From the NCBI GenBank assembly GCA_023657425.1, contig JAGTJW010000002.1:858431-922430 (forward strand): a stretch of DNA of 64,000 nt. Direction: 5' to 3'. The stretch is from Ideonella sp. WA131b. Lineage in GTDB: Bacteria > Pseudomonadota > Gammaproteobacteria > Burkholderiales > Burkholderiaceae_C. Both the position numbers and the translations under genes were made by a program. The notes under the pieces were generated by a model, which ran no database searches, was not told the origin of the DNA, and worked only from the letters and a program-made list of their open reading frames with translations. Each line of letters starts with the position of its first letter. Within the stretch, counting starts at the first letter, position 1. This document shows positions 1,798 to 60,924 of the stretch, one piece after another.

Positions 1798-3802
1798 GCG
1801 AGTCTCCGTTGGAAAGTGGTGTTGTGGGGTGCGGGTGGCGGTTGCAGTCTATGCCCATGGCCCGCCTGAGTTTGTCTAACGTTGGCCAGTGACTAGCCAG
1901 CAGTCAAGGCGACGCTGCACACCGCCACTTCAGTCAAACGCCGCTCACCATACAGCGCTTGGACAGCAGTGTCGCGATACGCCCCGGCGCCCATACGGCC
2001 AATGGGACGAATCGAACTCTAGGAGCGTGGGCGGCGCTTGGCGGCAGGGAACTGACCGCCTCCAGGAGCCTTACTTCAAGTGCTCGGCGAGAAACCTCTC
2101 CATGCGCCGGGCAAAGTCGGCTCTGGTTTCTGGCAGCCGCCAGGAGTGGCCCTCGTCGGGGTAGACCACCCACAGCGGGTCACGCCCGGCCTTTTGCAGA
2201 GCGTCGCGCAGGCGTTTGCCATGGGCCAGGGGCACACGCTGATCGGCTTGGCCAAAGGCCAGCAGCAAGGGGGCGAGGATCCGGTCTGCCTGGGCCACGG
2301 GCGACACACTGGTCAGCATGTCCGCATCGGCCCTGGGGTCACCGACCATCTGCGGCAACAAGTAGCGACGACCCGACCTGCTGATGTCGTCGCTGATCCA
2401 CCAAGACCCTTCAAGGTAGAGAAAGGGATCGGTCACAGCCACCCAGGCGACACCGCAGCGGTACAGCTCCGGGTGGCGTACCAGACCCATCAGCGTGGAG
2501 TAGCCGCCATAGCTGGCGCCAGCGATGCACACCCGCTTGTCGGCCAAGCCCTGCGCCTGGGCCCAGAGCACGGCATCGGCCACGTCGTCCTGCATGGCGC
2601 GGCCCCACTGCTTCCACCCGGCTTCGAAGTGCGCCTGACCGTAGCCCTGGCTGCCTCTGAATTCCGGACTGATGACCAGATAGCCGCGCGAGGCCAGGAA
2701 CTGCTCGGTTTCGCTCCACTTCCAGTGGCCCCCGCGAACCCAGGGCCCGCCGTGCACCAACACCACAGCCGGGCCCGGGCGCCCCGCTTGGCGGCCGATG
2801 GGCACGGTCAACCACACGGGCAGATCACGCCCATCACGCGCCTTGATGCGCTGAAGGTCGACGGAGGCCATCAGCCGCGGGTCGATGCCTGCATTGACCT
2901 GGGCCACGCCGAGCCACCGCTGGTCGGCCGCCGTGTAGACCCAGAGCTGCCCAGGGTGCCGGTCGGAGAACTGGTGCACCAGCGCCACCATGTTCGGTTC
3001 ACCACAGCGCCGGCAGCTGATGCGGTTGACAGTGCCCGACAAGCGCTCGTCCACCAGCGCCTGGAAGGCCTTCATCTTCGGGTCGAACCACACCGTCTGC
3101 TCTGCGTCGGTCACGACGCGCACGCCGGCCGCAGAACCACCTCGCCTGGTGAGGAGAACCGTGCCGCTGTAGTCGAAACCGGGCGTGGATATCCAGGCGG
3201 CCTGTGCGGGCTCGTGGCGATCGAAGTCGTACTGGACCAGCTCGCCATAGCCCTCCGGACCCCGGCGCTGCGTCACGTACAGGTTGCCGGCGTCGTCCAC
3301 ATGGTGGGGGCTGAAGGGAGCACGCAACGAGTCCGCCTGGTTCAGCAATTGCCATGCCGTCTGGCCAGGGCCACGCCAATGAATCAATTGCTGTCCTTGC
3401 CGCCGCGCGACGGCAACGCGGGCCTCACCGGCACTGTCAAAGAGCCAGCCCACGGTGCCGCGCGGCGCATCCAGGTCCATCAGGCGCGTTCTGCCGTTGC
3501 GGGTGTTCAGCCGCAGTGGCAACACCTCGCTGATGTCGTTGTGGACGTCGAAGATCAACCTCCCGACAAGGACCTCGTCGGCTTCAATGCCAGACTCGGG
3601 CAGCGGCACCTTCAGCAGCACGTGGTTGTAGGGCAAGACGTCGCGCGTGATGCGTCCTTCCACCACGATCGGCTCCGAACCGCGCGCCACCAGCTGGCGC
3701 AGGTTCTTGCCGTCGGCATCGACGCCATACAGACCGGGCGCCGAGCGGCGGTCTTCGCCGCTGCCAGACTCCAGATCGGCCACGCTGAAGATCAGGCGGT
3801 TG

Positions 3803-52348: not shown

Positions 52349-52882
52349 TTACTTGGTGAGCGAGGAGCCGAGCGCGAACACCGAGTTCGGCGCCGTCACC
52401 TTGATCGGCTTGACGACGGGCACCGACGAGATCGCGCGCTTGACCGGCGCCTCGTCGATGGAAACACCCTTGGCCAGCTGCTCGTCGACCAGCTTCTTGA
52501 GAGAGACGGAGTCCAGAAACTCGATCATGCGCTGGTTCAGGCCGGCCCAGAGGTCGTGCGTCATGCACTTGCCGCTGTCCTCGCCCATGCAGTTCTCGCT
52601 GCCAGCGCAGCCGGTGGCGTCGATGGGTTCGTCGACGGCGACGATGATGTCGGCCACGGTGATCTCGGTCGCCGGCCGCCCGAGCGAGTAGCCACCGCCG
52701 GGGCCGCGGGTGCTCTCCACCAGCTCGTGGCGGCGCAGCTTGCCGAAGAGCTGTTCGAGGTAGGACAGCGAGATCTGCTGCCGCTGGCTGATCGCTGCCA
52801 GGGCGACGGGGCCGTTGCTGGAGCGCAGGGCCAGGTCAATCATGGCGGTAACGGCAAAACGACCCTTGGTGGTCAGTCGCAT
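52349..52882 (-). CDS. iscR: Iron-sulfur-responsive transcriptional regulator IscR
   Basis: A 177-residue Rrf2-family regulator that senses cluster status and represses isc. The winged helix comes first ([37 protein letters not shown]), and the cluster cysteines are in [23 protein letters not shown], where the second spacing is x7 rather than the x5 of E. coli. ATG 52882 follows an AGGAG at 52894-52890. A dyad overlaps the likely promoter upstream, fitting autoregulation. Confidence 0.95.
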
Positions 52883-52937
52883 GGCGGGGCTCCTGGGCGC
52901 AGGGAGGCGCCGGCCGGGGGAAGGCTCGTTCCCGAGC

Positions 52938-52971
52938 GAATCACTCAACTATACCGGAAGTCGAGTGAATC
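52938..52971 (-). promoter_or_regulatory. Probable iscR promoter with overlapping dyad operator
   Basis: Arms 52938-52950 and 52959-52971 pair at 11 of 13 positions around an 8-nt spacer, and a TATAGT -10 box (52953-52948, minus strand) lies across the inner edge of one arm. A repressor bound here would block RNA polymerase. The spacing does not match the E. coli type 1 IscR consensus, so binding by IscR is inferred from position only. The -35 hexamer is weak. Confidence 0.55.
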
Positions 52972-53020: not shown

Positions 53021-53466
53021 TCAGCGGCTGGATTCAGCTGTGTCCAGCAGCGGCTGCTGCAGCGCGAGGCGCTCCAGGATGCCGTCGCAGTTGGCTTCCA
53101 CGAGGTCCGGCACGTGCTCGAAGCCGGCCGGGCTGCCGTAGCGGGGTCGGGCACCTCGGCCTCATGGGCCCGGCGCAGGGCCAGCGCCATCAGCATACCC
53201 GCCTGCGCCGGCCCGGCGGGCGGCCTGCGCTCACGCAGCCCGGAGCGTGGGCGTCAGACATCCGGCTCCGCGTTGGGCCGATTTCGGGGCCCAGGCCAGG
53301 CGTCGCGCGCAGCGAGGGCTGTACGCCCGGGTCAGCGAGGCAGCGCCGCATGGGCCCCGAAATCGGCCCAAGCCGAAGGGACGGGGCCGGGGCTGGATTT
53401 CTGCCGCCCACGCTCCCAGCGGGCGGGCGCGCAGGCGAGAGAGATCGTAGCCACGAGCCGCGACTG
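53021..53466 (-). pseudogene. Low-molecular-weight protein tyrosine phosphatase remnant
   Basis: Between uvrB and iscR lie two pieces of an LMW-PTP gene in the correct order. The upstream piece (about 53466-53418) reads [15 protein letters not shown], a mid-N-terminal block. After a 177-bp palindromic element the C-terminal piece reads EVPDP, then after a one-base deletion near 53143 YGSPAGFEHVPDLVEANC and ends LDTAESSR at 53021. The N-terminal P-loop with the catalytic C-x5-R and much of the middle are missing, so it cannot be active. Confidence 0.72.
53241..53417. repeat. 177-bp palindromic element inserted in the phosphatase remnant
   Basis: The inner arms 53273-53293 and 53351-53371 are a perfect 21-bp inverted repeat with a 57-nt centre. 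The outer ends 53242-53252 (GGAGCGTGGGC) and 53406-53416 are also exact complements, and the flanking bases pair at 16 of 18. The whole can fold into a long imperfect hairpin; a further small stem (GGCGT/ACGCC) lies in the centre. It encodes no protein. It looks like a REP- or MITE-like mobile repeat or a structured RNA. The same end sequence recurs at 60701-60712. Confidence 0.7.
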
Positions 53467-53516
53467 GGCGGCCGCGGCCGGCAGATCGCCGGCCAGCCAC
53501 TGCCTCAGGCGCTCGA

Positions 53517-55643
<2,127 letters not shown>

Positions 55644-55756
55644 GCGGGGTTTCCCTGGGCCTTGCACCTAGAATCCTGGGGGTCACCCACCGCATCGGGT
55701 GGGGGCAACCGGCAAGGGTAACCCACCCTCCCCATCCCCCAGATCCCCGACTCCAC

Positions 55757-60692: not shown

Positions 60693-60708
60693 CCTTGCTG
60701 CCCACGCT

Positions 60709-60924
60709 CCCAGCCCCTACTTCGGCCCGAAGTCCACCCGCGAGGCACCGCGTTGGCTCAAGGTGGATGTGACGCTGGTGCGCAAGACGCGCCTGCTGTC
60801 GCTGGCCGACATGCGCCGGGCGCCCGAGTTGTCGACCCTGCATGTGCTGCGTCGGGGCAACCGGCTGTCGATCACGCCGGTGACGGCTGCGGAGTGGGCG
60901 GCGGTGCTCGGGCGGCTGGGCTGA
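60709..60924 (+). pseudogene. 5'-truncated EVE-domain protein remnant
   Basis: An open frame without a start codon reads PYFGPKSTREAPRWLKVDVT, VRKTRLLSLADMRRAPEL and LRRGNRLSITPVTAAEWAAVLG, ending at TGA 60924. These are the last ~70 residues of an EVE-domain protein (usual length ~150), a domain related to modified-base readers. The first half, including the base-binding pocket, is missing. The break coincides with a GCCCACGCTCCC sequence identical to the end of the palindromic element at 53241-53417. Confidence 0.7.

Follow-up and report, generated by a model that had tools for sequence, protein, structure and literature searches.

A long palindrome in the window (the whole 64,000-nucleotide stretch of Ideonella sp. 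WA131b DNA analysed here) is very probably a decayed copy of a MITE that, judging by its sequence, would have been moved in trans by a DDE transposase of the IS1182 family. The kind of element is already known, the repeat being an IS1182-type MITE family and the window copy a degraded member of it. What looks new, from sequence comparison, is that the longer members carry a covarying two-hairpin core and that this core is paired with two kinds of ends.

The window copy within an LMW-PTP gene

First described as a palindrome at 53241-53417, the element is better bounded at 53243..53415 (173 bp, no strand assigned), and is a degenerate short-form IS1182-type MITE encoding no protein, recognized by its identity to the short forms and by its fold. 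It folds at -130.7 kcal/mol (z -8.8), which is equaled by none of 200 dinucleotide shuffles of one strand, and the opposite strand gives z -7.7 against dinucleotide shuffles; the palindrome is real and well past chance. The perfect 21-bp inner stem of the preliminary description is present (53273-53293 with 53351-53371) as part of 31-nt arms that are 87% complementary, and the outer ends are complementary as it stated (53242-53270 with 53388-53416, 86%).

The left terminal inverted repeat (53243..53272, forward strand) is defined by comparison with family copies, and the right one (53386..53415, reverse strand) by the same comparison together with arm complementarity. Between them lie an inner hairpin, arm A (53273..53371, no strand assigned), in which complementarity and fold give the 21-bp perfect stem plus apical stems, corresponding to covarying helices 2-4 of the alignment A1 described below, and a linker with the remnant of a mini-hairpin (53372..53385, no strand assigned), identified from its sequence and from the long form L016 set against the short form L009. 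Arm B, the second arm found in the 271-bp form, is absent. The window copy itself lacks an intact target duplication, having degenerate remnants on the left (CCCG, 53239..53242, forward strand; CTAG in most copies) and on the right (CCAG, 53416..53419, forward strand). It looks old, given its 90-91% identity to four other short forms in the genome, which measure 170-171 bp. Plasmid records gave no match to it.

In the preliminary description the palindrome separates two ordered parts of an LMW-PTP gene, and tblastn with the intact protein of a relative (G031) agrees. Residues 71-89 of the G031 reading, counted from its first translated residue, match the window at 53414..53470, the edge of which overlaps the element end by alignment, and residues 110-141 match at 53143..53238, both on the reverse strand. 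The intact G031 gene (locus L138) has a Pfam LMWPc match of 8.8e-32, and its two flanks matching the window are 92% and 89% identical. The gene order at the locus is uvrB, phosphatase, iscR-like, the window neighbors being uvrB (53517..55667, reverse strand; Pfam UvrB domains) and an iscR-like regulator of the Rrf2 family (52349..52948, reverse strand; Pfam Rrf2 5.8e-40). At the insertion point 59 bp of the G031 phosphatase sequence are absent from the window; relative to G031 the window phosphatase also lacks roughly 165-180 bp N-terminally, including the CTGNICRS loop, and its C-terminal part runs on in another frame.

A repeat family with CTAG duplications

A search of the host genome (G000) removes the concern that no other copies might exist: the window element matches at least 40 places there, a lower bound obtained by merging 120 rows, with 40 of 183 candidates scored. 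We read 38 stretches along with their flanking DNA, as well as another 20 sites where the match is terminal, and scanned 40 loci (the 38 together with L097 and L102) for paired ends. The scan yielded 34 two-ended elements, with seven loci lacking a pair; counting the flanking 4 bp, 21 of these are 275 bp long, six are short forms of 174-185 bp that include the window copy, two are 167 bp, and five are 60-91 bp. The short form L009 is the long form L016 minus its second arm. Elements spanning 60-275 bp are too short for a transposase gene, and the repeat is thus a MITE in being short, present in many copies, bounded by terminal inverted repeats and without a transposase gene. The ends read (CTAG)GAGCGTGGGCGGCAGAA, and the 14-bp end CTAGGAGCGTGGGC is found at 147 genome sites at no more than one mismatch, elements included, compared with a single site for the reversed pattern.

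CTAG is present on both sides of 30 of the 34 two-ended elements, the exceptions being one copy in each of L010, L013 and L041, and the window copy. We joined the flanks of 16 sites without the element and searched for these in four relatives, and at eight of them (L012, L016, L017, L020, L031, L015, L038, and L040, whose alignment has a short left side) at least one relative has an empty site with one CTAG. As the relatives keep a single CTAG at these eight sites, insertion with a 4-bp duplication is directly observed there. At two other sites the relatives align across the junction with CTGG (L022) or with TTAG or GTAG (L021) instead; L033 and L042 correspond to ~83 bp and ~500 bp of extra DNA in G031, with no CTAG there; and for L019, L028, L029 and L032 none of the four relatives provided a usable match spanning the junction. 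The earlier suggestion of a non-autonomous mobile element is borne out by the high copy number, the terminal inverted repeats, the CTAG duplications with their empty sites, and the existence of transposase-bearing elements that share the ends (see below).

Insertion could in principle have followed the mode proposed for IS1272, in which a target inverted repeat is replaced without duplication, but we consider this improbable. The part of PMC5678879 that deals with this Staphylococcus element assigns it to the IS1182 family and describes how it replaces inverted repeats of 21-38 bp, with no target duplication reported there; comparably, 59 bp are replaced at the window copy, and ~726 bp of an IS copy at an end-to-end palindrome (L089). 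However, the 59 bp exceed the IS1272 targets, a single fold of them in G031, run without shuffles, revealed no long inverted repeat, and the elements here duplicate CTAG, with one CTAG in a relative versus two in the host at eight sites. The empty sites refute inverted-repeat replacement as the general mode, and it could hold for some copies.

Promoter targeting was entertained and dropped. TAGNAT follows the target at 9 of 23 clean sites (leaving out 7 of the 30 CTAG/CTAG elements, which another end adjoins) versus 2 of 37 other CTAG sites in the retrieved loci (Fisher p 0.0017), but this motif was picked post hoc and TAGNNT is unenriched (15/23 versus 18/37, p 0.29); we make no claim of targeting.

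Two-hairpin cores and their two types of ends

The genus, and records titled Piscinibacter, Ramlibacter and Pseudorhodoferax, contain elements of 260-271 bp that are 60-95% identical to L016. We found 27 distinct long sequences; another three copies from G000 were passed over and the listing comprised 24 rows. Alignment A1 consists of 22 of these, L112 (260 bp) and L078 (which shares its genome with L109) having been excluded untested. Orientations in A1 were chosen for best identity to L016, such that the alignment leans towards homologous arms. The architecture of these elements is of near-constant length: an end stem of 30 bp is followed by arm A, by a mini-hairpin in which both predicted pairs are invariant, and by arm B. 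The consensus has 101 pairs with 95.2% of cells paired across the 22 elements, and 71 of the 101 pairs (385 cells) have changed on both sides, a level that none of 500 shuffles reaches, while sliding the partners lowers pairing to 35-42%; both controls flatter the result, as the structure derives from A1 itself and kinship can exceed shuffles without constraint, although the margin is still large. The alignment indicates that the core fold is preserved by compensating changes. Nineteen shorter elements with the same ends from other records mostly form one long hairpin, with L200, L210 and L251 being exceptions. Six ~160-bp hairpin MITEs with IS1182-type ends (L224, L230, L263, L269, L271, L291) share an apical tip like CATAGTGGTTCTATG.

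A repeated structured non-coding RNA or terminator gene would likewise account for the high pairing, the both-sided changes and the very stable fold on both strands. We nonetheless hold such an RNA to be improbable: the CTAG empty sites and IS-type ends indicate mobility, a palindrome folds on either strand, DNA-level hairpin correction could also compensate changes, and no Rfam family matches at its gathering score (best 31 bits versus a gathering score of 90). Structured RNA as a function, one of the two possibilities originally put forward, is unsupported, in that the fold covaries and yet palindromic DNA can do so without RNA.

Other genomes of the genus contain loci sharing arms, but not ends, with the host element. 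The pattern GAGCYTGTGAAGATATG is present in 6 of 81 genus genomes, and four distinct two-ended elements with these ends and related cores (in G050, G021, G026 and G029; loci L362, L365, L366 and L375, at 1501-1766 in each) are all 266 bp, fold alike, and have matching 3-bp TCA or TGA duplications. Between their interiors and three of the CTAG type, identity is 63-76% in the better of two orientations, the lowest value being scarcely above the control of 20 shuffles of one interior (mean 58%, maximum 61%); stronger than these identities are the BLAST matches of two of the four to the host element (E 7e-36 for G050 and 2e-10 for G021). G029 holds both kinds of ends. Both kinds begin with GAGYSTG or close to it, so that the ends may share a distant origin. 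This analysis found no IS with GAGCYTGTGAAGATATG ends. A related hairpin core with GAGGTTGAGAGG ends and a 3-bp TCA/TGA duplication is present at L079.

In the usual view a bacterial MITE is what remains of an IS and its interior is arbitrary; here it is the interior that is conserved, and not the IS. A related core with different ends and TCA/TGA duplications suggests that one core may join two end/target systems. It is conceivable, if somewhat doubtful, that the two-hairpin core is a long-lived lineage of its own that keeps its fold and length (266-271 bp) and is carried by two transposition systems (CTAG and TCA/TGA), i.e. a transposase parasite selected for folded DNA (or RNA) that is recognized or protective, rather than the leftover of one IS. 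With an interior that covaries, a length that hardly changes, and cores with two kinds of ends, it offers a testable case for selection on a folded non-coding shape.

Partner insertion sequences, known relatives and solo ends

A scan of named genomes with CTAGGAGYSTGSGCGGCAGAAA gave at least 120 stretches, from Burkholderiales, Gammaproteobacteria and Acidobacteriota among others. Among the 120 listed, seven contain a complete IS, 1527-1581 bp long, that shares the ends and has a 441-aa ORF (L205, L211 (Janthinobacterium sp. CG3), L238, L252 (Marinobacter records), L254 (Acidobacteriota MAG), L305 and L308), which carry CTA/TAG flanks where the contig reaches; L235 has an ORF of 454 aa and that of L207 is split. 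The L308 transposase is identical in L238, L252 and L305. NCBIfam model NF033551 assigns the three proteins tested (L308, L211, L254) to the IS1182 family, at 346-375 bits against a cut-off of 270, and they have Pfam matches to DUF772, DDE_Tnp_1 and DDE_Tnp_1_6. The MITE ends are thus common to complete 1.5-1.6 kb ISs in the genus, Janthinobacterium, Marinobacter and an Acidobacteriota MAG, and it is by these ends, shared with complete ISs of the family, that we assign the MITE to IS1182.

The 4-bp duplication made an IS5-family partner our first guess, as IS5-family ISs make 4-bp YTAR duplications, and IS5 models do match the L308, L211 and L254 transposases below their cut-offs. All three pass the IS1182 model and miss those IS5 cut-offs, which overturned the guess, and in the part of the host PF01609 matches covered (the 20 of 32 given as loci, together with L025) none has MITE ends flanking the transposase; we judge it very unlikely that the family is a MITE of an IS5-family element.

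For the preferred IS1182 partner, no transposase match was found in the host G000 at E≤1e-20 with all 8 candidates scored, nor any partner IS by end pattern, PF01609 transposases or IS-end comparisons. With no IS1182 transposase detected in the host, its copies look orphaned. Homologues at E≤1e-20 are present in 11 of the 81 genus genomes (just 21 candidates were scored in some) and the strict MITE end pattern in 14, the two lists overlapping only in G054. The full-length homologues from the genus are 64-70% identical, and their ISs have the ends GGAGCGTGGGCGGCAGAA, GGAGTGTGGGCGGCAGAA or GGAGTCTGCGCGGCAGAA, apart from small deviations, the same end variants that MITEs of different genomes carry. 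Similarity of L016 to nine ISs ends after ~20 bp, and it is therefore not a simple internal deletion of any of them.

These comparisons suggest a mechanism in which the partner transposase would bind ends of ~17-20 bp (GAGYSTGSGCGGCAGAA), mobilize the MITE in trans, and join it at CTAG, the 4 bp becoming duplicated. The family would have arrived in the host via a partner since lost, and its folded core may persist because the shape aids mobility or limits harm to the host.

Comparable elements are in print. MITEPye1 of Paracoccus yeei is non-autonomous, with terminal inverted repeats like those of the IS1182-family ISPye18, direct repeats and predicted long stem-loops (PMC11578231), and the elements here are alike in having IS1182-type terminal repeats, direct repeats and long-hairpin folding without autonomy. 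In contrast, MITEPye1 is of low copy (1-3 in chromosomes), and the passages of that paper describing it offer no counterpart to the two-hairpin core or its covariation. The MITEs of Methanosarcina acetivorans assigned to ISMac2 (160 bp, 14 copies; 169 bp, 7 copies) likewise have an IS1182 partner, but are archaeal, shorter, and given without a description of structure in the table and passages concerned; we read the table's last column, 4 for the 160-bp and 0 for the 169-bp element, as the direct repeat (PMC3852290). The final 4 for ISPse1 (IS1182) in a Paracoccus table we similarly read as a 4-bp duplication (PMC3281130), and a text search of a review of prokaryotic MITEs (PMC10969869) finds no mention of IS1182. 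Elements sharing our ends in Gammaproteobacteria (L221, L230, L263, L269) and in Thermoanaerobaculum and Acidobacteria records (L206, L212) are flanked by CTAG or close variants, but are mostly one hairpin of ~160-180 bp rather than two arms and ~268-271 bp in all. The expectation of something undescribed thus holds in part: IS1182-family MITEs have been published (PMC11578231, PMC3852290), whereas we found no description of the two-hairpin core or the second ends. In the literature searched no paper was recognized as describing the present element; ISfinder was outside its scope and may contain an entry.

The window also contains a solo element end, CTAGGAGCGTGGGCGGC, with the rest of the element absent (2019..2035, forward strand), and another with one mismatch (60700-60713, reverse strand). 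These solo ends are 14-17 bp, and the window has four end sites at no more than two mismatches compared to 1.08 expected. Solo half ends and 24-bp palindromes occur in the host genome, and these, the palindromes in general and the single Y1_Tnp gene in the genome would suit REP/BIME sequences spread by a REP-associated Y1 transposase, a reading that is strongly disfavored by the empty sites and extremely unlikely given the target duplications, an IS partner with a DDE transposase, and no MITE ends (at ≤2 mismatches) within L062, which covers the Y1 gene.

At some IS1182-type MITE copies the relatives have additional DNA, a point relevant to genome erosion by such repeats. The end-to-end palindrome at L089 (around 601-617) stands in place of its IS segment by comparison with L050-L052, the interrupted copy being presumably IS1380-like. 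The flanks of a palindrome at L096 (591-614) are ~3.5, 5.1 and 6.1 kb apart in G031, G036 and G028, reflecting either a deletion or differing gene content. The solo ends L088-L107 are mostly too diverged from relatives to decide on excision footprints; at L100 there are ~15 bp in one relative versus ~12 in G000 after a shared CTAG. We read the solo-end and palindrome sites as scars, which is unproven. Long palindromes are deletion-prone, which would account for the short forms, the solo ends, the end-to-end palindromes and the loss of host DNA next to some copies, such as the 59 bp missing at the window copy; we infer that palindrome instability made these scars.

Two unrelated ISs are located exactly at the CTAG center of GCCCACGCTCCTAGGAGCGTGGGC-type palindromes, as if the palindrome were a preferred target: one with a 583-aa transposase at L057 (1087-3080), which we take to be IS1634-like, and one with a 472-aa transposase at L025 (2262-3767). 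Both were considered as partners and rejected, as they lack MITE ends and appear to be inserted at that center.
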